A stretch of 45,661 nucleotides of DNA, from assembly GCA_020852555.1 (NCBI GenBank), contig JADZAQ010000073.1, positions 1 through 45,661 on the forward strand. Direction: 5' to 3'. The translations under genes were made by a program, and so were the position numbers. Shown here one piece after another: positions 2,500 through 38,366 of the stretch. The stretch is from Burkholderiales bacterium (lineage in GTDB: Bacteria; Pseudomonadota; Gammaproteobacteria; Burkholderiales; Casimicrobiaceae). A model generated the notes under the pieces. The model did no database searches. It was not told the origin of the DNA and was given only the letters and a program-made list of their open reading frames with translations. Position 1 is the first letter of the stretch. Every line of letters starts with the position of its first letter.

Positions 2500-2542
2500 C
2501 CGCCGCGCGACCCCCACCCACCGCCGGGGGGACGCGCGGCGG
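2500..2542 (+). promoter_or_regulatory. Site A: nested palindrome with C-run/G-run box upstream of the ThDP enzyme
   Basis: The core at 2511-2531 reads CCCCC, then ACCCACCGCC, then a G6 run. It is framed by perfect 10-bp arms, CCGCCGCGCG (2500-2509) and CGCGCGGCGG (2533-2542), so a 15-bp stem could form with an A-A mismatch. The element lies between divergent genes, so it is not a terminator. A TTATCG sequence starts exactly 20 nt after the G-run (2552-2557). It is one of seven related boxes in the window. The G-run is 181 nt from the chosen start of the ThDP enzyme, farther than in the other six. Confidence 0.55.
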
Positions 2543-2712
2543 CCGCGTCGTTTATCGTCGTGAGCACGGCTGTGTGGCACGGCCGGACAGGCCGAGGCCC
2601 GCGGAGACCGCCGCGAGCTGGGCGCGAAGTCTTCGGCCGTAGACCTGCCGCATGGCAGGCGTCAGCGACCGCAGTCGACCGCAAGGTCATTCACTCGACA
2701 CGAAAGGCAAGC

Positions 2713-4419
2713 ATGACGACCATCACCGGCGGCGAGCTGCTCGCCAAGGCGCTCGCCAACGAAGGCGTGCGAACGGTCTTCGGGCTCTCCTGCCCGGAGA
2801 TCGATCCCCTGCTGGCGGCGCTGGCCGCGAACGGCATTCGGCAGATTCCGATTCGCCACGAGGCGGCTGCCGTGCACATGGCCGAGGGTTTGTACAAGAC
2901 GACCGGGCAGGTCGCGGTCGTCCTCGGGAATCCCGGGCCGGGCTCGGCGAACCTCATTCCCGGGCTCGTCACCGCGCGGCATGAGGGCGTGCCGGTGCTC
3001 GCCATCAGCTCGCAGCATCGGCTGGGCATCGCCTATCCGTCGACACCGGCGACGTTCCAGGGGCAGGATCAGCTCGACCTGTTTCGTCCCGCGGTCAAGT
3101 GGACCGGCCCCGTATTCGACTGGACACGAATTCCCGAGCTCGTGCGCATGGCGTTCCGCGAGATGTGGGCGGGACGACCTGGTCCGGCGCATCTCGAGAT
3201 CCCGGGCCCGGTGCTGTACGCAAGCGCTGCCGCGGCGACCGCACCGATCTTTCCGTGGGAACGGGGCCGGGCGAGTGCGCCGCAGCCGTCGGACGCGCAA
3301 CTCGAGGCAGCCGCCGAGTTGCTGGCGCATGCGCAGCAGCCGCTCGTCTTTGCGGGCGCCGGCGTCGACCGCGCCGGTGCCAACGCCGCGCTCCTCGCGC
3401 TCGTCGCGCGCCTCGACTGCCCGGTGATCCCGTCGATGGCCGGACGCTCGGTCGTCCCGCACGATCACCCAAACTGCTTCCTGTCGCAGAGTCCGGTCGC
3501 CGACGATCTTCGCCGTGACGCGGACGTCATCCTTGCGGTCGGGACGCGCCTGGGCAACCTCGACGTGCCGTACGACAAGTATTGGGGCGACCCGATGCGC
3601 TGCGCATTGATTCACGTCGACGTCGAGCCGCGCCACATCGGCGTGTCGCGTCCGGTGACCGTGGGGATCGTCGCCGACGCACGCGCCACGCTCGAAGGCC
3701 TGGATGCGAAGCTCGCGGGCCGCACGCTCGTGAGCGCGGGACGCGCCGATCTCGCGGCGGCGCGCGAGCGGTATCGCGCGTCGATGCACGCGCTCGGCGG
3801 CTCGATCGCGACGTGGACCGGCGACGGCGTACATCCCGGCCAGGCCTGTGCCGTCGTCGGGCAGGTTTTCGGTCGCGACGCGGTGTATGTGACCGACGGC
3901 GGCATGACCTCGCTGTGGACGAGCGCCATGCTGCCGTCGACCCGCCCGTCCTCCTACCACAACATCCTCGAGCTCGGCATGCTCGGCACCGGCATTCCGT
4001 CGGCGATCGGCGCGAAGCTCGGCGCGCCGGCGCGCGAAGTCGTCTGCGTCACGGGCGACGGAGCTGCGGGCTTCAATGTGATGGAGCTGGAAACGGCCGC
4101 GCGCGAGGGCGTCAAGGTGACGGTGGTCGTCCTCGCCGAAGGCGAGTGGTCGATGGAGATCCTGAACCCGACGCTGCGCTGGGGCAAGACGTTCGGGACG
4201 ACGATGAGCAAGGTCGACTGGGCGAGGGTTGCCGAGGGTCTGGGCTGTCACGGCGAGAACGTCGACACCATGGCCGCGCTGGCGCCCGCGCTCACGCGCG
4301 CACGGGCCGATGTCCGCCCTTCGCTCGTCTGTGTGCGAACGAGCGTCGCCGCGAATCTCGCGGTGCCGACGGTGCTGCTCTCCCGTTTCAACGAGGTCTA
4401 TTTCGGCCCTTCCTCCTGA
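2713..4419 (+). CDS. ThDP-dependent enzyme, acetolactate synthase / 2-hydroxyacyl-CoA lyase superfamily, with atypical metal motif
   Basis: 568-residue thiamine-diphosphate enzyme with the three-domain layout of acetolactate synthase, oxalyl-CoA decarboxylase and 2-hydroxyacyl-CoA lyase. The N-terminal Pyr domain has the conserved activating Glu (RHE50AAAVHMAEG) and GNPGPGSAN; a central Rossmann-like domain covers about 190-335; the C-terminal PP domain has VTGDG at 446-450. In the ThDP metal motif GDG-x(24-27)-NN the Asn pair is replaced by Ala475-Glu476 (VVLAEGEWSM), which is unusual. The start is the ATG at 2713 with AAAGG upstream; an in-frame extension to 2560 has no family-like sequence. 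It converges with the thiolase gene, only 7 bp away. The reaction cannot be fixed from sequence: carboligation, decarboxylation or acyl-CoA lyase chemistry on a pathway intermediate are candidates, the last favoured by the acyl-CoA genes around it. Confidence 0.85.
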   Translation: MTTITGGELLAKALANEGVRTVFGLSCPEIDPLLAALAANGIRQIPIRHEAAAVHMAEGLYKTTGQVAVVLGNPGPGSANLIPGLVTARHEGVPVLAISSQHRLGIAYPSTPATFQGQDQLDLFRPAVKWTGPVFDWTRIPELVRMAFREMWAGRPGPAHLEIPGPVLYASAAAATAPIFPWERGRASAPQPSDAQLEAAAELLAHAQQPLVFAGAGVDRAGANAALLALVARLDCPVIPSMAGRSVVPHDHPNCFLSQSPVADDLRRDADVILAVGTRLGNLDVPYDKYWGDPMRCALIHVDVEPRHIGVSRPVTVGIVADARATLEGLDAKLAGRTLVSAGRADLAAARERYRASMHALGGSIATWTGDGVHPGQACAVVGQVFGRDAVYVTDGGMTSLWTSAMLPSTRPSSYHNILELGMLGTGIPSAIGAKLGAPAREVVCVTGDGAAGFNVMELETAAREGVKVTVVVLAEGEWSMEILNPTLRWGKTFGTTMSKVDWARVAEGLGCHGENVDTMAALAPALTRARADVRPSLVCVRTSVAANLAVPTVLLSRFNEVYFGPSS

Positions 4420-4426
4420 TCCGGCG

Positions 4427-5665
4427 TCAACGCACGAGGAGGTGCACGGCGACCGCGGCCTCCTCCACCCCCTGCATGCCGCCGCCGTTCTCCTGGATCG
4501 CGACGCGAGCGCCTTCGACCTGCCGCGCACCGGCGTCGCCGCGCAACTGCGTGACGAGTTCGAAGAGCTGTCCGATGCCCGTCGCCCCAAGCGGGTGGCC
4601 CTTCGATTCCAGGCCGCCCGATGGATTGATCGGGATCCGACCGCCGAGCGTGAAGTCGCCGCGCTCCGCGGCCGGCCCGCCCTCGCCGCGTGGGATGAGG
4701 CCCAAGTTCTCGGCCTGAATGATCTCGCCCATCGCCGAGGCGTCGTGCATTTCGGCGACGTCGACGTCATCGGGGCCGATGCCGGCGATCTCGTACGCCT
4801 CGCGCGCCGCGAGGGCGCCGATCGCCTTCTCGGGCTCGTCGATGCCGCGGTGCGTGAAGCTGCGCATGACGCTGGCGGCGACGCGGATGCACCGACTGCG
4901 GTCGGCGCCGATGCGGGCGAGGCCCTCGTCGGTGCACAGGATCGCGGCCGCGGCGCCATCGGACAGCGGTGCGCACATCGGCAGGGTGAGCGGATAGGTG
5001 ATGGGGGGTGCCGCGAGCACCTCGTCGATCGTGAAGGTCTTCCGGAACTGGGAATAGGGGTTGTGTACCGAGTGCCCGTGGTTCTTGGCGCACACGGCTG
5101 CGATCTGGCGCTGCGTCGTCCCGTAGGTCTTCATGTGCCAGCGGCACATCGCCGCGTAGATCGCCATGAACCGGCTGTACGGCCGGTCGGACTCCGACCC
5201 GCTCGGCGGTACGATCCCGTCGCCCATGGCAATCAGCGTCGCGTAGTTCTCCTCGGCTCGGGCGACGTCCCACCCGGCCTCGAAGATCGACATCGCCTTC
5301 GCCTTGTCGGGAATGTTCATTTTCTCGGCGCCGATCGCCAGCGCGACATCGGCGGCGCCGGCGCGCAGGCTCTGCACGGCGAGATGCACCGCCGAACTGC
5401 CCGACGCGCAGGCGTTCTCGACGTTGAACATGGGGATGCCTTCGAGGCCAATGCGGCCGAAGACGACCTGTCCCGGGATCGCGATCTGCCCCTGCAGCGG
5501 GCCGTTGGTCATCCCCGCGTAGTACGCGACGCCGAGGTCGGCGCGTGTGCAGCCCGCGTCCGCCAGCGCGCCGTCGAGTGCCTCGCGCGCGAGGTCGTGC
5601 AGCGAGCGCTCCAGGTGGCGACCGAATACGGTCATGGCGATGCCGGCGATGTACACGTTCCTCAT
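4427..5665 (-). CDS. Thiolase-fold protein, SCP2/lipid-transfer type
   Basis: 412-residue thiolase-superfamily protein, expected to act in the cytoplasm on acyl-CoA or 3-oxoacyl-CoA. The nucleophilic Cys is at position 86 (NVENACASGSSA), with the family motif GGLESKGHPLGATG and EMHDAS in place of the usual NEAF/HEAF box. The second catalytic Cys of classical thiolases (CxGGG) is missing: the equivalent place reads QENGGG, so Glu stands where Cys is expected. This is a feature of SCP2-thiolase-like and Ltp-like proteins, some of which are retro-aldolases needing a DUF35 partner; I see no DUF35 gene here. The start is the ATG at 5665, 8 nt after AAAGGA. It is divergent from the DUF1302 unit. 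Side-chain cleavage of a bulky acyl-CoA is an attractive but unproved role. Confidence 0.88.
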   Translation of the reverse strand: MRNVYIAGIAMTVFGRHLERSLHDLAREALDGALADAGCTRADLGVAYYAGMTNGPLQGQIAIPGQVVFGRIGLEGIPMFNVENACASGSSAVHLAVQSLRAGAADVALAIGAEKMNIPDKAKAMSIFEAGWDVARAEENYATLIAMGDGIVPPSGSESDRPYSRFMAIYAAMCRWHMKTYGTTQRQIAAVCAKNHGHSVHNPYSQFRKTFTIDEVLAAPPITYPLTLPMCAPLSDGAAAAILCTDEGLARIGADRSRCIRVAASVMRSFTHRGIDEPEKAIGALAAREAYEIAGIGPDDVDVAEMHDASAMGEIIQAENLGLIPRGEGGPAAERGDFTLGGRIPINPSGGLESKGHPLGATGIGQLFELVTQLRGDAGARQVEGARVAIQENGGGMQGVEEAAVAVHLLVR

Positions 5666-5722: not shown

Positions 5723-5743
5723 CCCCCCCTGCGGCGGGTAGAG
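5723..5743 (-). promoter_or_regulatory. Site B2: C/G-run box facing the thiolase gene
   Basis: Read on the minus strand: ACCC, then GCCGCA, then G7. The G-run (5723-5729) is 57 nt from the thiolase start codon. It belongs to the seven-member box family and shares a GCGGCGGGT core with the box at 29897-29915. Part of the same stretch also forms a small CCCGCC/GGCGGG hairpin (5719-5738). Confidence 0.5.
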
Positions 5744-5842: not shown

Positions 5843-5889
5843 TCCCCCTCGTCGATGGGGGGGATTCCCGCCCGCGGGATCCGTAATGT
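5843..5889 (+). promoter_or_regulatory. Site B: C/G-run box plus candidate -10 for the DUF1302 operon
   Basis: TCCCCC (5843-5848), an 8-nt spacer, then G7 and A (5857-5864). Exactly 20 nt after the G-run is TAATGT (5884-5889), a reasonable -10 hexamer; the start codon of the DUF1302 gene is 41 nt further on. The G-run would overlap the -35 region, where class II activators bind. A separate imperfect palindrome, GGATTCCCGC / GCGGGATCC (5862-5882), fills the space between box and -10 and may be a second protein site. Confidence 0.5.
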
Positions 5890-5930: not shown

Positions 5931-7823
5931 ATGATGAAGGGGAGGAAAACCTGCAAACGTGTTGCTGGGCGCGCGCGCCTGCGTCACGGTGCTCTTGCGG
6001 CCGCCATGGCCGCCGTCGTCGGCAACGCCGCACCGGCCCTCGCTTTCGAGATTCCAAGCGACAACCCGGACCTCACGGTGCGCTGGGACAACACGCTTCG
6101 CTACAACGCGGGAGTTCGCGCCCAAAGCCAGGATTCGGCAATTCTCGGGAATCCGAATTACGACGACGGGGACCGCAACTTCAGCAATGGCTCGATGACC
6201 GCGAACCGGCTCGACATCCTGTCCGAGTTCGACTTCGTCTGGCGTCGCAAATACGGCTTTCGCGTCTCGGCTGCGGGCTGGTACGACGGCGCGGCGAGCA
6301 ATCTCGCCAACAACTCGCCGGCGACCTCCAACTACCTGGGCGAGAATGGTCTGCCCATGGTCGGGCTGTCGCCGTATACGCAACGCTATGCGCGCGGCAT
6401 GTCCGGGGAAGTTCTCGATGCCTTCGCCTTCGCCAACGTCGACCTCGGCACGATGCCGTTCAGCGTCAAGGTCGGCCAGCACACCGTCTACTGGGGCGAG
6501 AGCCTGCTGCTCGGGGGCGCGCTGCACGGCGTCGACTATGCCCAGAACTCGCTCGACATCTGGAAGGGCCTGCAGGTCCCCGGATCCGAAGCGAAGGAAC
6601 TGTTCCGGCCACGGCAGGGCATCACGGCCCAGCTGCAGGCGATGCCGGATCTGTCGGTCGCGGCACAGTGGTTCTGGAACTGGCAAGCCGTGCGCTATCC
6701 CGAGTCCGGGAGTTATCTCACGGTCAACGATGCGCTCAATTTCGGCGGCCAGTCGCTCATCGTCGGCCCCAATCCGTTTGCGGCAGCGATCCCAGGCGCC
6801 CCGGCATACCTGCGAGCATGGAATCTCAACCCGATCGATCCATCGGTGACCAACGGCAGCACGATGGGCGACTGGGGCCTCGCCGCCCGCTGGAGCCCGG
6901 CCTGGCTCGACGGTACCGTCGGCCTGTATTACCGCAACGCCACCGACATCCAGCCGCAGCTCATCCTGACGCCGGGGATGGTGCCGCTGTCGGCGCAGCT
7001 GACGCCGGCCGCGTGCGGTGCGATCGGTGGCCAGGTCGCCTTCAAGGCCGTGTGCATGATCAACAAGGACGCGACCACGCAGGCGGACCTCGCGAGCAAG
7101 GGAAAGTACGGCACCTACCAGACTGCGTACGGTAACAACATCCACATCCTCGGCCTGTCGCTGTCGAAGAACATCGCCGGCGTTTCGGTCGGGGCGGAGC
7201 TGTCGTATCGCCAGAACATGCCGTTGCTCTCCGATCCGGTGACGGTGCTGCCGGCGCCGCTCGCGGCGATGACGCCGGGCGCGATCAGCGTCGGCACGAT
7301 CCCCTCGCAGGGCACGCCGGGTGCTCTGGGTGACACGATGCACGGCCTGCTCAACGGCATCTGGAGCGTGCCCAAGACGCCGCTGTGGGACACGGCGACG
7401 CTGCAAGGCGAGCTCAGCTGGATGACCTGGCTCAGCGTCACGCAGAACGAAGCCGTGTTCAAGGGCCGCTCGAGCTACACCGGCATCGACAAGCCGGACA
7501 AGAACTATTTCGGACTCGGCCTCAACTTCACGCCGACCTGGTACCAGGTGTTTCCGGGGATCGACATGTACGCGCCGCTCACCTGGAGCCAGGGGATATC
7601 GGGCAACGCGGCGGTGACGTCGGGCGGCAACGACGGCACCGGCAACTGGTCGGCTGGCGTGGCTATGGACATCCAGCAAAAATACCGCGTCGACCTCAAG
7701 TACACCGGCTACTACGGCAGCTATTCGACGCTTCCCAACGGCGCGATGAACGTTCCCAATGGCGTGTCGGCCGCGCTGTCCGATCGCGGGTTCGTGTCGC
7801 TCACCTTCAAGACCACTTTCTGA
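5931..7823 (+). CDS. DUF1302 family outer-membrane beta-barrel protein
   Basis: 630-residue secreted protein. The N-terminus (MMKGRKTCKR followed by a hydrophobic Ala-rich stretch ending APALA before FEIPS) is a clear signal peptide. The mature part has many alternating strands rich in Tyr, Trp and Gly and ends in FVSLTFKTTF, a typical C-terminal outer-membrane barrel signature. Blocks such as NRLDILSEFDFVW and YWGESLLLGGALHG are family-like. The start ATG at 5931 follows GAGGAGG; the adjacent ATG at 5934 is an alternative. It is the first gene of a unit with DUF1329, YCF48 and RND genes, an arrangement seen in many proteobacteria that degrade hydrocarbons or lipids. The likely role is an outer-membrane channel or adaptor for a hydrophobic compound; direction of transport is unknown. 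Confidence 0.9.
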   Translation: MMKGRKTCKRVAGRARLRHGALAAAMAAVVGNAAPALAFEIPSDNPDLTVRWDNTLRYNAGVRAQSQDSAILGNPNYDDGDRNFSNGSMTANRLDILSEFDFVWRRKYGFRVSAAGWYDGAASNLANNSPATSNYLGENGLPMVGLSPYTQRYARGMSGEVLDAFAFANVDLGTMPFSVKVGQHTVYWGESLLLGGALHGVDYAQNSLDIWKGLQVPGSEAKELFRPRQGITAQLQAMPDLSVAAQWFWNWQAVRYPESGSYLTVNDALNFGGQSLIVGPNPFAAAIPGAPAYLRAWNLNPIDPSVTNGSTMGDWGLAARWSPAWLDGTVGLYYRNATDIQPQLILTPGMVPLSAQLTPAACGAIGGQVAFKAVCMINKDATTQADLASKGKYGTYQTAYGNNIHILGLSLSKNIAGVSVGAELSYRQNMPLLSDPVTVLPAPLAAMTPGAISVGTIPSQGTPGALGDTMHGLLNGIWSVPKTPLWDTATLQGELSWMTWLSVTQNEAVFKGRSSYTGIDKPDKNYFGLGLNFTPTWYQVFPGIDMYAPLTWSQGISGNAAVTSGGNDGTGNWSAGVAMDIQQKYRVDLKYTGYYGSYSTLPNGAMNVPNGVSAALSDRGFVSLTFKTTF

Positions 7824-7835: not shown

Positions 7836-9191
7836 ATGGTGCGCAAGACACTTCTCGCGCTCGCCGTTGCATCGCTGTGCACCGGCGCGCTGGCGGCGGT
7901 TACGGCCGATGAGGCCAAGCAGCTCGGCACGACCCTGACACCGACCGGTGCCGAGAAAGCCGGGAACAAGGACGGCACGATTCCCGAATGGACGGGCGCG
8001 CTGAAGGCTCCGGCCAACTTCCAGGCCGGCGGCACCAAGCGACCCGACCCCTTCGCCGGCGAAAAGCCGCGCCTGGTCATCGACGCCAGGAATGCGGCGT
8101 CGCAGGCGGACAAGCTGACCGAAGGAACGAAGGAGCTCCTGAAGCGCTATCCGACGATGCGCGTCGACGTCTACCCCACGCACCGCACGGTGGGCTATCC
8201 GGCGAAGCTCGTCGAGAATACGCAGAAGAATGCGACCGGCGCCAAGATCACCGATGGTGGCCTTGGCACCGAGAACGTGTTGCCGGGTTTTCCGTTCCCG
8301 ATTCCGAAGAGCGGTTACGAGGCGATGTGGAACCATCTCCTCACGTACAAGGGCCTTACCTACAGCGCCAAGTACGACTCGTGGAACGTCGATTCCGCGG
8401 GCACGCCGATCCTCGCGACCACCGGGGAGATCTTCTACGGCTGGCCGAACTTCGATCCGAAGAAGGTCGGCGTCATGAAGGAAACCGACCCCTTCTGGTA
8501 CTTGAAGCTCTTCTACCTCGGCCCGGCCCGTCGCAACGGCGAGGCACTGATGGTGTGGGATTCGGCCAATCCACTCAAGCAGGGCCGGCGCGCGTGGCAA
8601 TACCTCCCCGGCCAGCGTCGCGTGAAGCTCGCCCCGGATGTCGCCTATGACACGCCGAACCCGGGCTCGGCGGGCGCCTCGACGTACGACGACGCCTACG
8701 TGTTCAACGGCGCGATGGATCGCTTCGATTTCAAGCTCGTCGGCAAGAAGGAGATCTACGTCCCCTACAACAACTACCGGCTGACGTACGAGGCAAAGCC
8801 CGCGGACATCACCAAGCCCGGCCACATCAACCCGGACCTCGTACGCTGGGAGCTGCACCGCGTGTGGGTGGTCGAGGCGACGCTCAAGGAAGGCAAGCGC
8901 CACATCTACAGCAAGCGGATCTTCTATCTCGACGAGGATACCTGGCAGGCGCTCGCATCCGACGAATATGATGCCCGTGGCCAGCTCTACCGATCCGGCT
9001 TTGCGTATCCGTCGTTCAGCTACGACGTCGGGGCACCCCTGCTCGATACGCAGGCGTTCTACGACTTCAGTTCCGGCGCGTACAACATCACGGGGCTGTT
9101 CGGGCCGTACTACGGCGCCAAGTACGCGAACGAGTTGCCGGAGCCGAGCTTCTGGTCCCCCGACGCGCTCGCCGGCGCCGGGCTGCGCTGA
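7836..9191 (+). CDS. DUF1329 family periplasmic/envelope protein
   Basis: 451-residue protein with a signal peptide (MVRKTLLALAVASLCTGALA, then AVTADEAK). It has the characteristic DUF1329 features: early LTPTGAEKAGNKDGTIPEW, internal YDTPNPGSAG and YVPYNNYRL blocks, and VWVVEATLKEGKRHIYSKR near the middle of the C-terminal half. The family is predicted to adopt a LolB-like incomplete barrel that could shield a lipid; that is structural inference, not shown by sequence alone. The ATG at 7836 is 12 nt after the DUF1302 stop, preceded by GAGGA, so the two are almost certainly co-transcribed. The pairing with a DUF1302 barrel suggests a shuttle across the periplasm or an outer-membrane assembly partner. 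There is no lipobox. Confidence 0.92.
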   Translation: MVRKTLLALAVASLCTGALAAVTADEAKQLGTTLTPTGAEKAGNKDGTIPEWTGALKAPANFQAGGTKRPDPFAGEKPRLVIDARNAASQADKLTEGTKELLKRYPTMRVDVYPTHRTVGYPAKLVENTQKNATGAKITDGGLGTENVLPGFPFPIPKSGYEAMWNHLLTYKGLTYSAKYDSWNVDSAGTPILATTGEIFYGWPNFDPKKVGVMKETDPFWYLKLFYLGPARRNGEALMVWDSANPLKQGRRAWQYLPGQRRVKLAPDVAYDTPNPGSAGASTYDDAYVFNGAMDRFDFKLVGKKEIYVPYNNYRLTYEAKPADITKPGHINPDLVRWELHRVWVVEATLKEGKRHIYSKRIFYLDEDTWQALASDEYDARGQLYRSGFAYPSFSYDVGAPLLDTQAFYDFSSGAYNITGLFGPYYGAKYANELPEPSFWSPDALAGAGLR

Positions 9192-10408: not shown

Positions 10409-12907
10409 ATGGCTGCCGTTACCGACGACGTCGATCGCATGCCGGTCGTGCGCGACCTCAAGGACTTCGATCGAGACTCCGGCAACCTTCTCGAGCGGCT
10501 GGTATTCAACCACCGGCTGGTGCTGGTGCTCGCCTGCGCGCTCGTCACGCTGGTGCTGGGCTACGTCGCGGCGACGCGGCTCGTGCTGAACGCGAGCTTC
10601 GAGAAGATGATCCCGCAGTCGCAGCCGTACATCCGCAACTACCTCGACAACCAGAAGGCCCTGCGCGGCCTCGGCAATTCCATCCGCGTCGTCGTCGAGA
10701 ATACGCGCGGCGACATCTTCGATCCGCAGTACCTCGAAGTCGTGAAGCAGGTCACCGACGAGCTGGTCCTCACGCCGGGCGTCGATCGCGCGTGGGTCAA
10801 GTCGTTGTGGACGCCGGCGGTGCGCTGGACCGAGGTGACCGAGGAGGGATTCCAGGGCGGGCCGGTGATGCCGGACACCTACGACGGCTCGCCGCAGAGC
10901 ATGGAGCAACTCAAGCAGAACATCGCGCGCTCGGGCATCGTCGGCAGTCTCGTCGCCAACGACTTCAAATCGAGCATGATCTTCGTGCCGCTGCTCGATC
11001 ACGATCCGGTCACCAAGGCCAGCATCGACTATCGCGGGCTGTCGCGGGTGCTGGAGGAGAAGATCCGGGACCGCTACGAGCTGGCCAAGAATCTCGACAA
11101 GGTTCGCGACAAGGCCGAGACGCCGATGGTGAAAGTCCGGGTGATCGGTTTCGCCAAGCTCGTCGGCGAGCTGATCGATGGGCTCGTCAAGGTCATGATG
11201 TTCTTCGGCATCGCCGCGCTGATCGCCACGGTCGTCATCTTCGCCTACACGCACTGCGTGCGCAGCACGGCGCTGGTGATCGCCTGTTCGCTGGTTGCCG
11301 TGGTCTGGCAGCTTGGCCTGGTCGCCCTCTTCAATTTCGAGCTCGACCCGTTCAGCATCCTGGTGCCGTTCCTGGTCTTCGCGATCGGCGTGTCGCACGG
11401 CGCGCAGAAGATGAACGGCATCATGCAGGACGTCGGCCGCGGCACCGTGAAGCTGGTCGCAGCGCGCTACACGTTTCGCCGGCTGTTCCTCGCCGGGCTC
11501 ACCGCGCTCGTCGCCGACGCGGTCGGCTTTGCGGTGTTGATGGTGATCGATATCCCGGTGATCCGCGATCTCGCGCTCACCGCGAGCATCGGAGTGGCGG
11601 TGCTGATCTTCACCAACCTGCTGCTCTTGCCGGTGCTGCTGTCGTACACGGGGGTGAGCGCGGTCGCCGCGCAGCGCAGCCTCCGTGCCGAGCGGGCGGA
11701 CACGCGCGGCAAGGGAATCGGCCACCTGTGGCAGCTGCTCGGGCGCTTCACGTCGCGCCGCTGGGCGAGCGCGGCAGTCATCATGGCGGCGACGCTGACG
11801 CTTGGGGGGCTCCTCGTCGGCACCCACCTCAAGATCGGCGACCTCGATCCGGGTGCTCCGGAATTGCGGCCCAATTCACGCTACAACGTCGACAACGCGT
11901 ACATCACCGGCCACTACGCGCTGTCGTCGGACCAGTTCGCGGTCATCGTCAAGACGGACAAGGAAGGCTGCCTCAAGTACGAGACGCTGGTCGAGGCCGA
12001 CCGCCTGGCCTGGGCCCTGCGGCAGGTGCCGGGCGTCCAGGCGACGGTGTCGTTGCCCGACGCGGTGCGGCAGATCACCGCCGGGTCGTTCGAAGGCAAT
12101 CCGAAGTGGTTGACGCTCAACCGCAACCAGGACGTGTTGAACTACGCGGCGCAGCAGGCGTCGGTCAACAACCCCGATCTCTTCAATACCGAGTGCTCGG
12201 TGATGCCGGTGATCGCGTATCTCGCCGACCACAAGGCGGCGACGCTCGACCGCGTGGTGCAGGCGGCGGACGCGTTCGCCAAGGAGCACTCGACCCACGA
12301 TCGCGTCTTCCTGCTCGCTGCCGGCAGCGCCGGCATCGAGGCCGCGACCAATATCGTGGTGCGCAGCGCCTGGCGGGAGATGCTGCTGTACGTGTACGCA
12401 GCGGTCATCGTGCTGTGCTTCGTCACCTTCCGCAGCTGGCGGGCGGTGGTGGTGGCGGTGGTGCCACTGATGATCACCTCGGTGCTGTGCGAGGCGCTGA
12501 TGGTGCTCCTCGGCATCGGCGTCAAGGTGGCCACGCTGCCAGTGATTGCCCTCGGGGTCGGGATCGGCGTCGACTACGCGCTCTACCTGCTCTCGGTGCA
12601 ACTCGCGAACCAGCGCCGCGGCCTCGAGCTGCCGGAGGCGTACATGCAGGCACTGCAGTTCACGGGCAAGGTGGTGGCGCTGGTGGGGGTCACCCTCGCG
12701 GCCGGCGTCGTGACCTGGGCGTTCTCGCCGATCAAATTCCAGGCCGACATGGGCATCCTGCTGACGTTCATGTTCCTGTGGAACATGGTCGGAGCGCTGG
12801 TGGGCATCCCGGCGCTTTCGTACTTCCTCCTCCCGACCTCGGCCGTGCGTGGCGCGACGTCGCAGCACGGCACATCACCCGCAGTGCCGGTAGTCGCGGA
12901 ACGCTGA
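10409..12907 (+). CDS. RND superfamily (MMPL/HpnN-like) inner-membrane permease
   Basis: 832-residue proton-driven transporter of the RND superfamily. It has the expected two-fold repeat: TM1 near residues 35-55, a first periplasmic domain to about 255, a block of five hydrophobic helices to about 420, TM7 near 450-470, a second periplasmic domain, and a final helix bundle from about 650 to 825. The second half has the conserved GVGIGVDYALYLL helix with an Asp for proton relay, and the first half FAIGVSHGAQKM at the matching place. The ATG at 10409 follows AGGA. MMPL and HpnN relatives move lipids or hopanoids. Together with the outer-membrane barrel, DUF1329 and YCF48 proteins it probably forms a trans-envelope lipid or steroid-like transport route. 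There is no membrane-fusion protein or TolC partner nearby, so it is not a classic tripartite efflux pump. Confidence 0.93.
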   Translation: MAAVTDDVDRMPVVRDLKDFDRDSGNLLERLVFNHRLVLVLACALVTLVLGYVAATRLVLNASFEKMIPQSQPYIRNYLDNQKALRGLGNSIRVVVENTRGDIFDPQYLEVVKQVTDELVLTPGVDRAWVKSLWTPAVRWTEVTEEGFQGGPVMPDTYDGSPQSMEQLKQNIARSGIVGSLVANDFKSSMIFVPLLDHDPVTKASIDYRGLSRVLEEKIRDRYELAKNLDKVRDKAETPMVKVRVIGFAKLVGELIDGLVKVMMFFGIAALIATVVIFAYTHCVRSTALVIACSLVAVVWQLGLVALFNFELDPFSILVPFLVFAIGVSHGAQKMNGIMQDVGRGTVKLVAARYTFRRLFLAGLTALVADAVGFAVLMVIDIPVIRDLALTASIGVAVLIFTNLLLLPVLLSYTGVSAVAAQRSLRAERADTRGKGIGHLWQLLGRFTSRRWASAAVIMAATLTLGGLLVGTHLKIGDLDPGAPELRPNSRYNVDNAYITGHYALSSDQFAVIVKTDKEGCLKYETLVEADRLAWALRQVPGVQATVSLPDAVRQITAGSFEGNPKWLTLNRNQDVLNYAAQQASVNNPDLFNTECSVMPVIAYLADHKAATLDRVVQAADAFAKEHSTHDRVFLLAAGSAGIEAATNIVVRSAWREMLLYVYAAVIVLCFVTFRSWRAVVVAVVPLMITSVLCEALMVLLGIGVKVATLPVIALGVGIGVDYALYLLSVQLANQRRGLELPEAYMQALQFTGKVVALVGVTLAAGVVTWAFSPIKFQADMGILLTFMFLWNMVGALVGIPALSYFLLPTSAVRGATSQHGTSPAVPVVAER

Positions 12908-12988: not shown

Positions 12989-15622
12989 TTACGCGGCGAC
13001 CAGCCCGAGCAGGCGCGCCCGATCGACCGCGTGCCTGCGCGTCCCCGCGTTGAGCTTCGAGAACAGGTTCTTGAGGTGCCACTTCACCGTCTCGTCGCTG
13101 ATGCTCATCGTTTTCGCGATGACCTTGTTCGACATCCCGCCGACGAGCAGGCGCAATACCTCCGCCTCCTTGGGCGTGAGCAGGCCTCCGGGTATCGTCG
13201 CGGCACGAGCGGTGGCGGAGGTCAACGCCGGAGCAGGCGCCGCCTTGTGGTCGGTCGCTTGCGCCAGTCTTGCTGCGATCGGGTGCGTGTCGACGACGAG
13301 GCGTCGAAACCCGCCGAGATCGAGGAGATCGAGCAGTTCGCGCAGCAATGATGTGGCATCCAGACCGCGCTCGTGCGCGACCACTACCTGCAGGATGCGA
13401 ACGACGAACTGCAATCCGCGATCGCGCAGGCCCAGCGTGATCGCGCTCGCGTCGCGCAAGCGCGCGTCCGCAGTGTCGACGTCGAGCCGGGCCAGTGCCA
13501 CCTGCGCCCGGGATATCGCGAGCAGCGCATCGTAGATCGGACCATAGACTGCGAAATCGGACTCGTCGAACGCTGCGCGCAGGGCCTCGATCGTCCCGAC
13601 CAGTGCGGTTGCCGTTTCCACCCGTCCACGCGCCGCGTGGATGCGCACCTGGTCGGCGAGCGCGAGCAGTGCGATGCGCGGCATCTCGCGCGTGCGTGCG
13701 AGCTCGTGCAGGCTGCCGAGCGTTTCCAGCGCGCCACGCTCGTTGCCTTGCGCCATGGCGACGTGCGCGAGCACCCGGTAGGCGATGGCGACGGCGTCGG
13801 GGAGTCCGGTCTGCTCGATCACGTCGAGCCTGTTGGCGAGCATCGCGCGAGCCCCGGCGACATCTCCCTGCTCGTAGAGCACGAGCGCGAGCGGGGCGGC
13901 GAACGTCGCCGCGAGTACGTGGCGCCGTCCTGCCTGTCGCTCGGCAGCCACGAGCGCCGATCGGAGGACGGCATCGGCCTTGAAGAGGTCGCCGTCCCAC
14001 ACATGGCTGAGGGCGACGATGACGCGGCCAAGTGCCACCGCCATCGACAGCGACTCGTTCGCGGGCTGGAGCGAATAGGGTGCCTCGAGCTGGCGGGCGC
14101 GCTCGGTGGCGCCGGCGTGCAGTTCGATCCACGCGCAGACGTTTGCGTACGAAACCTCGTGGACGGGCGTGGCGAACGCCTTCGGCGGCTCGTCGACGCG
14201 CCCGAGCCAGTTCCGCAGTACGCCAGGGCGGTCGAGGAACGCCGCTGCGCAGGTGGCGACAAGGACGCCGACGAATTGCTGCGCGGCGGTCGCGGACGCC
14301 GACGCGTAGACCGCTTCGGCGATCTCGAGGCCGCGCCGCGGCTGCACGCCGACGGCAAGGACCCACGCGGCGACGAGCCGCAGGTCGTTGTCGCTCGCCA
14401 GCAGGTCGTCAGGAAGCTGCTCGAGCCACGCCTGCGCTTCCCGGATCCTGCCCTGGGCACCGATGGCAAAGAGGCAGCGCTTGGCGTAGCTGCGCGCGAG
14501 GCCGGCGTCACCCGCGGCAAGCGCATGCCGCCCCGCTTCGTGAAAATGACCGTGTGCCGCCAACCAGTCGCCCGCACGGCGGTGCACGGCGCGCTGCTCG
14601 TCTCGCGGCAGCTTTTCGAAGCGGCCCAAGAGGAAATCACGGCCGAGACCATGGATGCGCATCCAGTCACGCTGCTCGCCGACGACGATCATCGGGCTGT
14701 CGGTCACGAGCTTGGCCAGATACCGAGCGGTTTCGGCGCAGCCGGTTACGGCTGCTGCGAGATCGACCGAGAAGTCGTCCAGGATCGCGATGCGGATCAG
14801 GAAGTCGCCTACTGCCGGCGGCAGCTGCGAGAACGAGGATTCGACAAAATATCGCTCGAGGTCGCCCTCGCGGGCCGACAGGCTCGCGATCGCCTCGTGG
14901 AGATCGGAGGCGCGTTCGATCGCCGTCGCCGCGAGCTGGAGCCCGAGCGGCCAGCCCTCGGTGGCCTCGTGCAGGCGTACGGCGTCATCGAGCACGATCC
15001 GCTGGCCAAAGCGCTTCTCAAGCATCGAGACCGATTCGAAGAGATCGAGCCGCAGGTCGTTCGCGTCGATCGATCCGAACTGACCGTGTGCCCGCAGAGC
15101 AACGGTTGGCACGCGCAGCGGACCGCGGGAGCCGATGACGATGTGCAGATTGGGTGGCGCGTTGAAGGCGAGGTAGGCGAGCGAATGATGCAGCGTTTCA
15201 TCCGGCAGCCGCTCGGCATCGTCGAGCATCAGCACGGTGGGGGTCGCGAGCCCGGCGACCTCGGCGAGCAGTCCGGTCAGCATGTCGACGCTGTGCGCCG
15301 AGGCATCGGTGTACTCGGCCATGATGCGTTCGAACGCCGGGCGCCCGCTCGCCACCCGCAGCGCGTAGAGGAGGAGGCTTGCGAAGCGCGCCGGGTCGTC
15401 GGTGGCATCGAGCGTTGCCCAGGCGACGACGGCGCCGTGCTCCATCCACAGTCGCCGCCACTGGGTAAGCAGTGTCGTCTTGCCGAATCCGGACGGCGCC
15501 GAGACCGAGATTGCCGTGCGATCGCGCAACTCGAGCCATGCTTGTGTCAGGCGCTCGCGGAGCAGCGCCGTGCGCAGCACGCGCGGCGGCGTGGTCTTGA
15601 GGATGAATTGCGGGTCGGCCAT
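12989..15622 (-). CDS. MalT/AlkS-type LuxR-family ATP-dependent transcriptional regulator
   Basis: 877-residue STAND-class activator. An N-terminal NTPase has Walker A APSGFGKTT (about 42-50) and Walker B TVLMLDDAE; a long helical TPR-like sensor region follows; the C-terminal LuxR helix-turn-helix starts LTPKEAEVLRLL and contains SNKVIAKTMSISDETVKWH. This is the MalT/AlkS architecture, in which ATP and an inducer trigger oligomerisation on promoter boxes. The start is uncertain: the ATG at 15622 precedes the conserved FILKTTPPRVLR segment, while a GTG at 15661 would add 13 residues; neither has a clear ribosome site. It lies 75 nt downstream of the second GST-like gene on the same strand and may be co-transcribed. 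It is the only MalT-type regulator in the window and the best candidate to read the repeated G-run boxes. Confidence 0.92.
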   Translation of the reverse strand: MADPQFILKTTPPRVLRTALLRERLTQAWLELRDRTAISVSAPSGFGKTTLLTQWRRLWMEHGAVVAWATLDATDDPARFASLLLYALRVASGRPAFERIMAEYTDASAHSVDMLTGLLAEVAGLATPTVLMLDDAERLPDETLHHSLAYLAFNAPPNLHIVIGSRGPLRVPTVALRAHGQFGSIDANDLRLDLFESVSMLEKRFGQRIVLDDAVRLHEATEGWPLGLQLAATAIERASDLHEAIASLSAREGDLERYFVESSFSQLPPAVGDFLIRIAILDDFSVDLAAAVTGCAETARYLAKLVTDSPMIVVGEQRDWMRIHGLGRDFLLGRFEKLPRDEQRAVHRRAGDWLAAHGHFHEAGRHALAAGDAGLARSYAKRCLFAIGAQGRIREAQAWLEQLPDDLLASDNDLRLVAAWVLAVGVQPRRGLEIAEAVYASASATAAQQFVGVLVATCAAAFLDRPGVLRNWLGRVDEPPKAFATPVHEVSYANVCAWIELHAGATERARQLEAPYSLQPANESLSMAVALGRVIVALSHVWDGDLFKADAVLRSALVAAERQAGRRHVLAATFAAPLALVLYEQGDVAGARAMLANRLDVIEQTGLPDAVAIAYRVLAHVAMAQGNERGALETLGSLHELARTREMPRIALLALADQVRIHAARGRVETATALVGTIEALRAAFDESDFAVYGPIYDALLAISRAQVALARLDVDTADARLRDASAITLGLRDRGLQFVVRILQVVVAHERGLDATSLLRELLDLLDLGGFRRLVVDTHPIAARLAQATDHKAAPAPALTSATARAATIPGGLLTPKEAEVLRLLVGGMSNKVIAKTMSISDETVKWHLKNLFSKLNAGTRRHAVDRARLLGLVAA

Positions 15623-15697: not shown

Positions 15698-16777
15698 CTA
15701 GATGACCCGGCCGGCGGCGAGCCCGATCCGGCGCACGCGCGGCAGGTCGAGTTGCAACAACTCGCCCCCGCCGAGCGCATCCAGCCATTGCCGGACTGCC
15801 TGCCGGTCGGCGAGCGGCGCGGCCCGCCAGCTGTCGAGCAGGCGCTGCGCCATCCACACCGGATACGACAGCCCGGGCCGGCGGTGGACGCCGCCGGCAA
15901 ACGGATAGGTCACCTCGGGCAGCATGCGAATCGCTGCCGGCGCATCGGCAGCGACGATCGGGGTCGATCGGACTCGCGCCGCGCAGGCGTCGAGGAACGG
16001 CAGCATCTCGTCGACGATCGAGCGCAGGCAGGGGGTGAGCGTCGGCGGCACGCTGTCGTGTGCAAGGAAGCTTCCCGACGACGCCCCGGGCTCGAACATG
16101 CGCTTTATCCACGCGCCGAGATGGGGCCGGGGGCCGATCAGCTCGCGCCGCGGCCAGGGATCGCGCCCGAGGTGCGCGTACAGCGGCCCGATGAGTCCGA
16201 AATCGCCCAGCGAGGCGCGATCGCCGAACAGGAAGCGATGCTTCGCGAAATGCGTGTCGAGCGCGTCGAGCTGGATCTGCGCGAAGCGATCGATCAGCGG
16301 TGCAAACTCGGGAGTCACCCCAACGGCCCGGGCGAGCGCATGCATCAGGCGCGCGTGGTTGCGTCCGATAAGGTTCTTCGCCCAGCGCGGCCAGGCCGGC
16401 AGCAGCGCGTCGCCGGCGTCGTGCACGAAGAGCGGCAGATTCTCCGCGTGACTCCAGCGGGCGTGCATGGCCAGCGGCAGCCAGAATTCGTCACCCCACA
16501 ACTCGAACAGGAACGCTGCGAAGCGCAGCACCGGCGTTGCCGGGAGCACCGGTCGTTCCGGGAACCGCTGCTCCAGGCGATCGATGATCTCGCTCGTATC
16601 CTGGAGCCACTCTCCTTCTGGCGTGATGAGGATGGGCACCGCCCGCGCGTGGGTCCGTCGCTTCGCCGTCCATACGAACTCGAAGGGACTCGAGCCCCGC
16701 TCGACAAACGCGATACCCTTCTGGATGAGGTAGCTGCGCAGCTTGCCGCTGTACAGCGACAGCTCGGCGCCGATCAT
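15698..16777 (-). CDS. Glutathione S-transferase-like protein with extended C-terminus (copy 2)
   Basis: 359-residue paralogue of the protein at 1346-2449, with the same N-terminal thioredoxin-like fold ([34 protein letters not shown]) and the same long helical C-terminus containing [13 protein letters not shown]. The ATG at 16777 aligns with the start of copy 1; an in-frame ATG at 16819 would add 14 residues with no counterpart. It is divergent from the acyl-CoA ligase and leads into the MalT-like regulator gene. No canonical catalytic Ser, Tyr or Cys of a defined GST class can be assigned with confidence, so enzyme activity is unproved. Its placement as first gene before the regulator suggests a role in the same pathway, perhaps in handling an intermediate. 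Confidence 0.8.
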
Positions 16778-16833
16778 CGTGAAGCGAGGCTCGCTGCCGC
16801 GTATGGACGCTGGATGCATGCGTCAAGAGCATG

Positions 16834-16891
16834 CGGCAGCCGCACGCACGGTCACCCACCCATGGTGGGGGGCGAGCGGGGCCGGCTGCCG
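16834..16891 (+). promoter_or_regulatory. Site C: nested palindrome between GST copy 2 and acyl-CoA ligase
   Basis: The inner box (16854-16872) reads ACCC, ACCCAT, GGT, G6, with a perfect CCCACC/GGTGGG stem around CAT. The outer arms CGGCAGCCG (16834-16842) and CGGCTGCCG (16883-16891) are exact reverse complements. The G-run ends 89 nt before the ligase start. Like site A it is a box nested inside larger arms, between a GST-like gene and an enzyme gene transcribed away from each other. Confidence 0.55.
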
Positions 16892-16961: not shown

Positions 16962-18605
16962 ATGCAAGGACTGATGCAGGATCGCCCACTGTTGATCTCG
17001 TCGCTCATCGAGCACGCGAATGCGTTCCATCCGGGCGCCGAGATCGTCTCGCGCACTGTCGAGGGCCCCATTCACCGCTGCACGTACGCCGACATCCGGC
17101 GCCGCGCGAAGCAGGTGGCCAATGCGCTGACCGCGCTCGGGGTGCGCGCAGGGGAGCGCATCGGGACGCTCGCCTGGAACGGCTTCCGGCACATGGAGCT
17201 CTACTTCGGGGTGTCCGGGATGGGGGCTGTCCTGCACACCATCAACCCGCGTCTTTTTCCCGAGCAGATCGCCTACATCGTCGACCATGCCGACGATCAG
17301 TACCTGTTCTTCGACCTGACGTTCGCGCCGCTCATCGCGCGCCTGGCACCGCAGCTCAAGGGCGTCAAGGGCTTCGTCGCGATGACGGACCGCGCGCACA
17401 TGCCGGCGATCGACGTGCCCAACCTCGTGTGCTACGAGGAACTCGTCGGCGAGCATACGGACGACTTCGACTGGCCCATGCTCGACGAGAATGCGGCGTC
17501 CTCGCTGTGCTACACGTCGGGGACCACCGGCAATCCCAAGGGTGTGCTCTATTCGCACCGGTCGACGGTGCTGCACTCGTTCGCGGTGTGCGCGGCCGAC
17601 GGCATCGCGCTGTCCGCGCGCGACAGCGCGCTGCTGGTCGTGCCGATGTTCCACGTCAACGCCTGGGGCACTCCGTACGCAGGTGCCATGTCCGGCGCCA
17701 AGCTCGTCATGCCCGGCCCGAACCTCGACGGCAAGAGCGTCTACGAGCTGATGCGCGACGAACGGGTGACGGTCGCGCTCGGCGTGCCGACCGTCTGGCT
17801 GATGCTGTTTGGCCATGTCGAGGCGAACAGCCTCGATCCTCGCCGTGAGCTCACCCTCCAGCGCGTCGTGATCGGCGGCTCGGCCGCACCGCGCACCATG
17901 TGCGAGCACTTCGAGTCGCGGTTCGGGGCATTTGCCCTCCACGCGTGGGGCATGACCGAGACGTCGCCCATCGGCACCGTCTGCAATCTATTGCCCAAGC
18001 ATGTCGGGCTGCCGCTCGCCGGCCGCCTGGACGTGCAGAAGAAGCAGGGACGGCCGCTCTTCGGCGTCGAACTGCGGATCACCGACGACGACGGGCGCCG
18101 GTTGCCGCACGACGGCGTCGCGTTCGGCCACCTGATGGTGCGCGGGCCGTGGATCGCGGCCAGCTACTTCAAGAGCGAGGGAGGGGACCTGCTCGACGCG
18201 GACGGCTTCTTCGACACCGGTGACGTCGCCACCATCGACCCCGACGGCTACATGCAGATCACCGATCGCAGCAAGGACGTCATCAAGTCCGGGGGCGAGT
18301 GGATCAGCTCGATCGACATCGAGAACGCGGCGATTGGGCACCCGGCGGTGGGCGAGGCCGCGGTGATCGGCGTCGCGCACGAGAAGTGGCAGGAACGGCC
18401 GCTTCTCGTCGTCGTGCGCAAGCCCGGGCAAGACGTCTCCCGCGAGGAGTTGCTCCACTTTCTGGAAGGCAAGGTGGCGAAGTGGTGGTTGCCGGACGAC
18501 GTGCAGTTCGTCACCGAACTGCCGCACACGGCCACGGGCAAGCTCCAGAAGATCAGGCTGCGCGAGATGTTCCGCGACTACCGGCTGCCGGCGGCTGCGG
18601 CGTAA
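16962..18605 (+). CDS. AMP-forming acyl-CoA ligase (AlkK/FadD-like)
   Basis: 547-residue ANL-superfamily ligase that should activate a fatty or aromatic/alicyclic acid to its CoA thioester through an acyl-adenylate in the cytoplasm. The P-loop is [11 protein letters not shown] (184-194); the adenylate motif is AWGMTETSP; the hinge region is [22 protein letters not shown]; the catalytic Lys is K527 in TGKLQK. Sequence style ([26 protein letters not shown]) matches the medium/long-chain branch that includes AlkK. The ATG at 16962 follows CAGGA. It is the first plus-strand gene after site C, with the hydrolase gene 2 nt downstream. Together they could release and activate an acid. Exact chain specificity cannot be read from the sequence. 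Confidence 0.93.
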
Positions 18606-19625: not shown

Positions 19626-19674
19626 ACCCCACCCCTTCGCAGGGGGGGCGTCCTGCCGTACTCCTCTCTAGCCT
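19626..19674 (+). promoter_or_regulatory. Site D: C/G-run box and candidate -10 for the acyl-CoA dehydrogenase operon
   Basis: ACCCC, ACCC, CTTCGCA, then G7 (19626-19648). TAGCCT begins exactly 20 nt after the G-run (19669-19674), the same spacing as the TAATGT at site B. The start codon of the acyl-CoA dehydrogenase gene is 81 nt after the G-run. This would drive the nine-gene unit that ends at 29261. Confidence 0.5.
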
Positions 19675-29261: not shown

Positions 29262-29682
29262 GCGCCCCCGACCACCGCGCCAGGTCACGGACGCGCGCCG
29301 CACCACGCAGATCATCGTCAGCGTTCGCACGTAGCTGACGCGGGGCAGGGCAGGTTGATCTCGAGCAAGGCGAGGCGGTTCCCGCGAGCGGCTCGATCCG
29401 GTTGAGCAGGCACACGGCGATCGCGCAGATGTGCGCCGTCGATGCCGTCATGCTTTCATGGCGAACGGGAGCGTAGACTCATCGCGAGGAACAACTTACA
29501 GGCTGGGATCTCGCGTCGCGGGTGGCGAACTGGCCGGCTCGTTCCCGAGAGGCCGCCTATCGTCCGCCAGTCCGCCACTCCGTCAAGCGATAATTCGCAT
29601 TTAGTATCTCGCAATTCGCAATACGTGTCCTGCGGCGAGACGCAGCGCAGACGCTCGCCGCGGTGACGCGGCGGGTCGCCGT
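29262..29682. other. 421-bp intergenic region with an AT-rich island
   Basis: It lies between convergent genes and no convincing coding sequence is seen. Around 29588-29630 the base composition drops sharply to AT-rich, and AATTCGCA occurs twice (29592-29599 and 29613-29620), 21 bp apart. No strong terminator with a T-run is seen. An unannotated small RNA or a remnant of inserted DNA are possible. Confidence 0.4.
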
Positions 29683-29841
29683 TCAGTGGGGAAAGACGAG
29701 GCGCACGGAGCGAAGCGCGGCAACCGCCATGACAGGCGCGCTGGCATCGGCGCGGGTGGCCGGCGGCATCGACACTTCGTTGCGCGCGGCGAGCAGCGCG
29801 ATCATGCCGATGGCGAGGCAGGCGGTGACGGCGCGTTTCAT
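29683..29841 (-). CDS. Tiny secreted peptide, copy 1 (52 aa)
   Basis: 52-residue protein, MKRAVTACLAIGMIALLAAR then a Pro/Ala-rich linker and the C-terminus ALRSVRLVFPH. The N-terminus is a signal peptide or single TM anchor. A clear relative occurs at 38140-38292, with the same start (MKRA), the same hydrophobic core and nearly the same last 11 residues (ALRSVxLVFPH), while the middle differs in sequence and length. That pattern argues for real selection on both ends. The ATG at 29841 has AGGA upstream in the shared sequence CCAGGAYGCAGCC. A box of the C/G-run family lies 55 nt upstream of the start, exactly as in copy 2. Function unknown; candidates are an envelope peptide, a signal, or a toxin-like peptide. 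Confidence 0.6.
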   Translation of the reverse strand: MKRAVTACLAIGMIALLAARNEVSMPPATRADASAPVMAVAALRSVRLVFPH

Positions 29842-29896
29842 GGCTGCGTCCTGGGTAGCACAGGTTGCAGCGTGCACGAAGTCGGCGCTACCCGCG

Positions 29897-29915
29897 CCCC
29901 CGGCGGCGGGTGGGG
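29897..29915 (-). promoter_or_regulatory. C/G-run box upstream of tiny peptide copy 1
   Basis: Minus-strand reading: CCCC, ACCC, GCCGCC, G5. The G-run (29897-29901) is 55 nt from the ATG at 29841. It is closely similar to the core of site A (CCCCACCC, purine, CCGCC, G-run). The flanks ACCCGC/GCGGGT (29890-29895 and 29906-29911) also form a 6-bp inverted repeat. Confidence 0.5.
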
Positions 29916-35241: not shown

Positions 35242-35267
35242 GGCCGAACATCCGCGACATCCGCGGA

Positions 35268-35933: not shown

Positions 35934-35941
35934 TCATTTCC

Positions 35942-36888: not shown

Positions 36889-36944
36889 GGCGGGCTCCTG
36901 ACGCACACCGATGACCCTGGCGTAGACGCCTGCGCGATCGCCGT

Positions 36945-36962
36945 GTTGCGGGATCGCGCAAC
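36945..36962 (-). other. Inverted repeat upstream of the barrel gene
   Basis: GTTGCG (36945-36950) and CGCAAC (36957-36962) form a 6-bp stem, just after the stop of the gene fragment 36962-37165 and 56 nt before the start of the barrel gene. It could be a terminator for the debris or an operator; no T-run is present. Confidence 0.3.
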
Positions 36963-37165: not shown

Positions 37166-37186
37166 GGCCACGGTCCGCGCGGCTCG

Positions 37187-37966: not shown

Positions 37967-38139
37967 GTGGTCGTTCCTCGCTGACGACGCGCTCGATGGC
38001 TTCGCCCGAGTGTTCGCGACGCCGAACGCGGAAGGCGTCGGGCGACCGCGTCGACCGTGACCCTCGCCAACATGACCTACCGCTCGCCCGAGATCTCTTC
38101 TGATCATCCCATCGGATGCCGCGGATACGCGGCGCGCAT

Positions 38140-38292
38140 TCAGTGTGGAAATACGAGGTGCACGGAGCGAAGCGCCGTAACGGCCACGCCGGGTGTGCCT
38201 ACACTGGTTGCGGGCGGCGCCGGAACTGGGCGAAGCGCGGTGAGTAGCAATACGGCGCCGATGACGATGCACATGCTGATTGCGCGTTTCAT
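38140..38292 (-). CDS. Tiny secreted peptide, copy 2 (50 aa)
   Basis: 50-residue protein with MKRAISMCIVIGAVLLLTAL, a Pro-rich linker and the C-terminus ALRSVHLVFPH. It pairs with the peptide at 29683-29841. Similarity extends upstream through the ribosome site (CCAGGATGCAGCC before the ATG at 38292) to a C/G-run box, with the G-run 55 nt from the start in both copies despite small compensating insertions and deletions. Function unknown. It sits between the patatin gene and gene debris, and is likely a stand-alone transcript. Confidence 0.6.
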   Translation of the reverse strand: MKRAISMCIVIGAVLLLTALRPVPAPPATSVGTPGVAVTALRSVHLVFPH

Positions 38293-38347
38293 GGCTGCAT
38301 CCTGGATGGCAACACAGGTAGCGTGCAGGAGGCCGGCGCGACCCGCA

Positions 38348-38366
38348 CCCCCGGAGTCGGGTGGGA
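38348..38366 (-). promoter_or_regulatory. C/G-run box upstream of tiny peptide copy 2
   Basis: Minus-strand reading: TCCC, ACCC, GACTCC, G5. The G-run (38348-38352) is 55 nt from the ATG at 38292. It is the counterpart of the box at 29897-29915 and a member of the same seven-site family. Confidence 0.5.

Follow-up and report, generated by a model that had tools for sequence, protein, structure and literature searches.

A 19-bp C/G inverted repeat as the probable operator of a MalT-like LuxR regulator in a catabolic gene cluster of a Burkholderiales bacterium

Contig JADZAQ010000073.1 of a Casimicrobiaceae (Burkholderiales) genome carries seven C-run/G-run boxes upstream of catabolic genes and of two tiny open reading frames (ORFs). 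The entire contig (C73; 45,661 nt), referred to as the window, was analysed; it makes up 1.2% of the DNA of a 3.83 Mb genome in 282 contigs. The box is an inverted repeat of 19 bp, about CCCCCYC-N5-KGGGGGG. Sequence comparison makes it very probable that one pathway-specific activator uses the boxes as its operators: the LAL (MalT-like LuxR) regulator of 877 aa encoded in the same window (12989..15622, minus strand), which combines an ATPase, a TPR_MalT region and a GerE helix-turn-helix and is proposed to read them. The box and its spacing to a -10 element recur beside relatives of this regulator in Pseudomonas, Variovorax and other bacteria. What the sequences show directly is the box with its symmetry, spacing and positions, its recurrence in relatives and concentration in the cluster, and the presence of one full-length regulator of this kind. 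In the open-access literature searched, we found no description of this operator, nor of what the regulator of DUF1302/DUF1329 genes binds.

Results

An inverted repeat at a fixed distance from the -10

Using homology to the LAL regulator alone, 75 loci were taken from public genomes. Run pairs and spacings were counted in 62 of these, or in 59 after three known same-genus loci had been left out; label groups are genera plus pooled unnamed metagenome-assembled genomes. The controls were a swapped G-run/C-run motif in the relatives' loci and a reversed pattern in genomes, and counts across relatives are not weighted for kinship, apart from near-identical sites dropped for the matrix described below. 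Among the matches listed, C-run/G-run pairs are prominent beside the genes of the regulator's relatives. The plain pattern ACCC-N5-9-GGGG shows a weak excess over controls in these loci (20 versus 12 and 95 versus 83). Exact C6-N-G6 pairs in the 62 loci peak at gaps of 7 and 8, with 29 and 40 places, compared with 0 and 1 for the swapped control.

Tabulated without any -10 input, the spacing to TANNNT has a sharp peak at 20 nt, with 33 matches for 173 anchors in the 54 of 62 loci that hold anchors. In the 59 loci, which span 13 label groups, 60 TANNNT matches for 159 anchors lie 19-23 nt past the G-run; the rate elsewhere is 0.48 per position, so that this is a 25-fold excess, and the swapped motif gives 0 TANNNT matches for 24 anchors. 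Other gaps between the runs show the peak less often (gap 3, 4 of 35 anchors; gap 12, 24 of 62; gap 14, 9 of 35), and a peak at several gaps would be expected wherever long runs fit more than one gap.

A matrix was built from 58 relatives' sites, seeded with C-run/G-run sites followed by TANNNT, with same-genus loci left out and near-identical sites removed. It reads nCCCCC[CT]C, five loosely fixed bases and [GT]GGGGGG, and is symmetrical about position 11 by inspection. The relatives' -10 lies 20-23 nt past position 20, at 21 nt in 40 of the 58 sites and at 20-22 nt in 57. If the -10 takes its conventional place at -12 to -7, the dyad centre falls near -43. The arrangement of a LuxR-type class II operator, an inverted repeat over the -35 at a fixed distance from the -10, is found in both the matrix and the spacing histogram, the latter being independent of -10 information. 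The suggestion of an activator box over the -35, made earlier from the window alone, is supported by this fixed spacing across the label groups. Near distant LAL genes (27-29%) in Paraburkholderia and Caballeronia (L068-L071), a purer dyad, CCCCTC-N5-GAGGGG, is seen.

The seven boxes of the window

The sequence-only reading had placed seven boxes in the window, and all seven read as given there. Its statement that the G-run lies 55-89 nt from the start codon in six of the seven is correct, the exception being the box of the thiamine pyrophosphate (TPP)-dependent enzyme at 181 nt, and the TTATCG, TAATGT and TAGCCT it had noticed 20 nt past the G-run of three boxes are all present.

Box 3 (5843..5863, plus strand), the candidate operator of the DUF1302-DUF1329 genes, is the top-scoring box on the relatives' matrix (23.6 bits), with TAATGT as its -10 at 21 nt and the start codon 67 nt away; it starts with CCCCC and lies outside the strict pattern ACCCN{5,8}GGGGG, yet no box scores higher. 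Box 1 (2511..2531, plus; 14.2), the putative operator of the TPP enzyme, has no mismatch to box and -10. Because its G-run is one base shorter, the -10 is better read as TATCGT, 21 nt past the box end, in the register of the relatives. In the opposite direction, TATCGT follows box 1 at 2491-2486 (22 nt; two mismatches to box and -10), possibly as part of a divergent promoter for GST-like gene 1. Box 5 (19626..19648, plus; 16.2), with TAGCCT at 21 nt, would be the operator of the acyl-CoA dehydrogenase gene, 81 nt downstream, and of the genes that follow.

Box 4 (16854..16872, plus; 11.9) is followed by CATCTT at 22 nt, falls outside the matches to box and -10 described below, and is the candidate operator of the acyl-CoA ligase gene; the gap is 89 nt because the ligase ATG lies at 16962. 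On its other strand, CATGCT at 21 nt could serve GST-like gene 2 and then the regulator. Box 2 (5723..5743, minus), 57 nt before the ATG of the thiolase gene, has the lowest score, 8.9. Box 6 (29896..29915, minus; 12.5) and box 7 (38347..38366, minus; 10.1) belong to one duplication; they stand upstream of tiny ORFs 1 and 2, 55 nt from the start codon in both cases, each with CACGCT at 21 nt.

On the relatives' matrix, six of the seven boxes score at least 10, giving nine oriented matches, compared with a mean of 0.55 and a maximum of 3 in 40 simulated windows; two further matches (9.9 and 9.4 bits) lie within a sulfatase ORF and were taken as noise. TANNNT is found at 20-22 nt in three of the seven boxes (P 1.5e-6). 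The relaxed form [TC]ANNNT is found in six (P 1.3e-8), a relaxation picked after viewing the window and a count that includes both boxes of the duplication. The strict pattern gives eight matches at six distinct places in the window, where 1.14 matches were expected and the maximum in 100 shuffles was 4.

Concentration of the box within the genome

Of the 52 distinct places across the genome that fit the strict pattern, six lie in the window (P 3.6e-5; 3.6e-4 if the two peptide boxes are counted once). Allowing at most one mismatch, the box occurs at 14 distinct places; six of these, including both perfect ones, are in the window (P 8e-9, or 3e-7 with the peptide boxes taken as one), and box 2 is not among the 14. 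The number of matches alone is uninformative, because the reversed-pattern control gives 16 in the whole genome against 18 for the box pattern; it is the location that is telling. When box and -10 are sought jointly with at most two mismatches, all six matches in the genome fall in the window, at boxes 1 (both strands), 3, 5, 6 and 7. The reversed control for such joint matches gives three in the whole genome.

The regulator and its association with the box

The regulator has the LAL architecture of about 900 aa. The GerE/LuxR helix-turn-helix (PF00196, E 5.6e-17) occupies residues 828-881 of the 890-aa ORF; towards the N-terminus, AAA_22 and TPR_MalT score just above their cut-offs and AAA_16 below. 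Among solved structures the best match is MalT (PDB 8bob), aligned over residues 13-410, and four regulators were aligned with one another. In its own genome the regulator is the sole whole-length match. The next match (E 3e-14, residues 9-446) is an ATPase, in whose 953 residues read a GerE domain is absent.

Boxes pile up beside the gene: in 54 loci, of which 47 have the regulator gene starting at 10001, 71 of 121 oriented matches of at least 14 bits are in the pair of 500-bp bins that flank it. One or more C-run/G-run anchors are present in 54 of 62 loci, and by looser criteria 52 of the 62 have an anchor followed by TANNNT, mostly near gene ends. The regulator is found at E <=1e-60 in four of 61 genomes (its own included), one of them a 28%-identical protein in G020, and at E <=1e-100 in three of 64 genomes of the family. 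Three same-genus genomes with a close copy hold 6, 7 and 10 joint matches (controls 3, 3 and 5), whereas the other 19, G020 included, hold 0-3 each, in sum 16 against 22 for the control. These 19 genomes without a close copy are thus at control level. The assignment of the boxes to this protein by the sequence-only reading gains support from the sole whole-length match, the pile-up of boxes and the same-genus contrast.

Genome G006 has two regulator copies. The contig that carries one of them holds six of the seven joint matches, at 41.7-60.2 kb around that copy, and the remaining match is on the other copy's contig. Two clusters of G006, L008 and L010, divide many of the window's genes between them; each has its own LAL copy, and L010 is almost boxless. 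Twelve genomes reached via the loci hold 1-19 joint matches; the top counts, 19 each (controls 2 and 3), belong to the genomes of L056 (Ramlibacter monticola) and L059 (P. arsenicoxydans). Some repeat-rich distant relatives without the regulator at threshold have many box-only matches. L074 (G029:C387), from another genus of the same family and outside the same-genus comparison, has six joint matches, against a control of 0, and holds a LAL fragment where a contig ends.

Association of the box with particular genes was compared across the relatives, using checked gene starts and leaving out genes with uncertain starts. A strong box (at least 12 bits) lies upstream of 15 of 78 homologues of the window's boxed genes, compared with 1 of 77 homologues of unboxed genes (P 1.5e-4, kinship ignored). 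A second scan covered 73 of 87 proteins encoded past relatives' boxes; 11 with near-identical or closely related counterparts in the set and three others (one regulator gene and two more) were left out. The longest ORFs starting within 350 nt past these boxes encode thiolase (12), TauD (11), ligase (7), universal stress protein (6), hemerythrin (6), DUF1302 (3) and acyl-CoA dehydrogenase (3).

Contrary observations and alternative explanations

Several observations weigh against the boxes being operators of the LAL regulator. At 20-22 nt, box 2 has neither TANNNT nor [TC]ANNNT, and boxes 4, 6 and 7 have CANNNT only. The runs and the -10 in the matrix are not independent of the seed, since the matrix was seeded with these same features. 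Joint matches in the three same-genus genomes that have a close copy outnumber the reversed control by a factor of no more than about two, and no excess is seen in the genomes of L025, L017, L030 and L029 (3/11, 2/3, 3/3 and 1/1 versus control). The second regulator copy of G006, in L010, adjoins an 83%-identical thiolase gene; the single strong box of its locus (16.7) lies towards the far end and lacks TANNNT, and the one other box, ahead of the ligase gene, is weak (8.3). For as many as 63 of the 78 boxed-gene homologues, a strong box is lacking within 260 nt, so that boxed promoters seem to shift around within clusters; thiolase and acyl-CoA dehydrogenase genes in Pseudomonas loci L016, L017, L032 and L036 are boxless examples. 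The universal stress protein and hemerythrin genes that follow relatives' boxes are not catabolic.

The boxes might instead be operators of another DNA-binding protein, either a further activator or a repressor that sits over the -35, with the LAL protein a mere neighbour. A G-run over the -35 would suit a repressor too, and the genome holds eight additional partial matches to the regulator, of which seven are confined to the C-terminal end. We consider this improbable: the loci were fetched by the LAL protein alone, yet most of them hold an anchor followed by TANNNT, same-genus genomes without a close LAL copy stay at control level, and inverted repeats near -42 are typical for the LuxR-type helix-turn-helix. 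The MalT-box interpretation was rejected. MalT boxes are short G-rich repeats, to which the sequence-only reading had likened these elements. That likeness does not hold, for the element is a dyad, not a MalT-type hexamer, and the protein scores 258.7 bits on the NCBIfam MalT equivalog (NF003420), against a cut-off of 537.

It is far less plausible still that the C-run/G-run pairs act as RNA hairpins in the form of terminators, G-quadruplexes or leader structures. Such inverted repeats can fold, terminators of GC-rich genomes can resemble them, and some of the relatives' anchors may be terminators. Against this, TTTT occurs in the next 12 nt of 5 of the 159 relatives' anchors and in the next 15 nt of none of the seven window boxes, for which the terminator or hairpin reading was rejected on that count. 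Moreover, where a -10 is seen, it follows the box at a constant spacing, which would place the box outside the RNA. Chance in GC-rich DNA, picked after the fact, has hardly any likelihood, for all that the genome has 52 places fitting the strict pattern and that two weaker window matches fall inside the sulfatase ORF: the enrichment in the window, the matrix derived from other genera and the fixed -10 spacing all speak against it, and the spacing histogram refutes it unless the sets prove to be biased. Operators of the LAL regulator thus remain the preferred reading of the boxes.

Genes of the cluster

The boxed genes encode the TPP-dependent enzyme (2713..4419, plus), of the acetolactate synthase/2-hydroxyacyl-CoA lyase superfamily, for which all 25 NCBIfam matches listed are below cut-off; a thiolase related to SCPx/lipid-transfer proteins (4427..5665, minus; Thiolase_N and Thiolase_C_1); the DUF1302 protein (5931..7823, plus; scanned from 5775) with the DUF1329 protein behind it (7836..9191, plus); an AMP-binding acyl-CoA ligase (16962..18605, plus); and an acyl-CoA dehydrogenase (19730..21010, plus). 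An RND/MMPL transporter is encoded at 10409..12907 (plus). There are two GST-like proteins, each having a box in common with a divergent catabolic gene: GST-like protein 1 (1346..2449, minus) and GST-like protein 2 (15698..16777, minus), whose ORF opens at 16819 and whose start was set by eye through likeness to the former. Of the 75 loci, 24 hold a homologue of DUF1302, 24 of DUF1329, 22 of RND, 32 of the ligase and 29 of the thiolase (E 1e-10, 40% of length), some of these homologues being distant paralogues.

The thiolase is about 80% and the RND transporter about 75% identical to proteins of Pseudomonas loci (L014, L016-L018), compared with just 38% for the regulator. This disparity suggests that the cluster may travel between classes and swap or diversify its regulators. 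Elsewhere in the window (39887-45274, minus), beside the large sulfatase ORF, lies an anaerobic sulfatase maturase (TIGR03942, 477.6 bits, cut-off 349), whose ORF as opened has an N-terminal extension of about 320 aa.

The tiny ORFs

Putative tiny ORF 1 (29686..29841, minus; 52 aa) and tiny ORF 2 (38143..38292, minus; 50 aa) belong to a duplicated unit of box, putative -10 and ORF (29657-29914 and 38118-38365, minus), whose copies are 72% identical over a 261-column alignment. Because these form one 261-nt duplicated unit, boxes 6 and 7 count as one observation. The translations are 56% identical and, judged by eye, resemble a signal sequence followed by a conserved ALRSV[RH]LVFPH end. No codon-position pattern is seen between the two ORFs (16, 13 and 16 differences; dN/dS 0.66), an open frame would survive such divergence by chance in about 30% of cases, and no convincing homologue was found in 60 relatives (best E 0.02). 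Conserved genes for tiny peptides are therefore unsupported by either the relatives search or the substitution pattern, and coding by these ORFs is at most weakly suggested.

Discussion

For the proposed mechanism, we infer binding, activation and the nature of the inducer, as well as divergent promoter use and feedback. Judged by gene content, the inducer that the LAL regulator would sense is probably lipophilic: a fatty-acyl compound, an ester or something related, or the CoA ester of such a compound. Its LuxR-type helix-turn-helix would bind the 19-bp inverted repeat, with half-sites tolerating CCCACCC. A repeat centred about 43 bp upstream of the transcription start would put the G-run in the place of the -35, and the bound regulator may recruit RNA polymerase, so that the promoter, with its -10, would need no -35. 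LuxR itself provides an example of such class II activation. The genes for the TPP enzyme, thiolase, DUF1302/DUF1329 proteins, ligase and acyl-CoA dehydrogenase would be driven in this way. Given the symmetry of the repeat, two divergent promoters may in some places share a box. Box 4 may in this way control GST-like gene 2 and the regulator gene, which would amount to positive feedback.

In protein architecture the regulator resembles MalT of enterobacteria, its best solved-structure match, and differs from it in its equivalog score and in the 19-bp dyad. A closer functional parallel is AlkS, described in the sections of PMC8784404 consulted as a MalT-like LuxR activator of alkane genes in Pseudomonas putida GPo1 and Alcanivorax. 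Like the system proposed here, AlkS activates a catabolic cluster for lipophilic substrates from a 20-bp inverted-repeat site upstream of the promoter, and in GPo1 it exerts positive feedback on its own gene (PMC8784404). The systems differ in that no alkB gene is seen among the window's annotated proteins.

Another point of comparison is P. putida, in which PP_0765 (DUF1302) and PP_0766 (DUF1329), together with PP_2018 and PP_2019, are reported as essential for Tween 20 metabolism and proposed to form a transport system, according to the parts of PMC10866462 consulted. The window likewise holds DUF1302, DUF1329 and an efflux-type transporter. In view of the role of DUF1302/DUF1329 proteins in P. 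putida, and with a ligase, an acyl-CoA dehydrogenase, an SCPx-like thiolase and a TPP enzyme present, the cluster would serve to take up a lipophilic acid or ester and to degrade it by a CoA-dependent route. Many of the fetched Pseudomonas loci have DUF1302, DUF1329 and RND homologues beside a LAL gene and box. We take PP_0767 to be the regulator of the P. putida PP_0765/PP_0766 locus. This protein is not mentioned in the main text of PMC10866462, and no open-access paper on it was found.

A broader proposition, which we regard as rather doubtful, is that one operator grammar (the 19-bp C/G dyad, 21 nt and TANNNT) and one LAL subfamily accompany lipid-catabolism clusters of the DUF1302/DUF1329/RND type across Beta- and Gammaproteobacteria. 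A single symmetrical box would then fire promoters on both sides, and the regulon of the present genome would have recruited a duplicated exported micropeptide. DUF1302/DUF1329 genes adjoin such regulators in 24 of the 75 loci. A defined box with a fixed spacing would allow likely targets to be read from the genome and told from mere neighbours, and would provide a reporter promoter for the inducer search.

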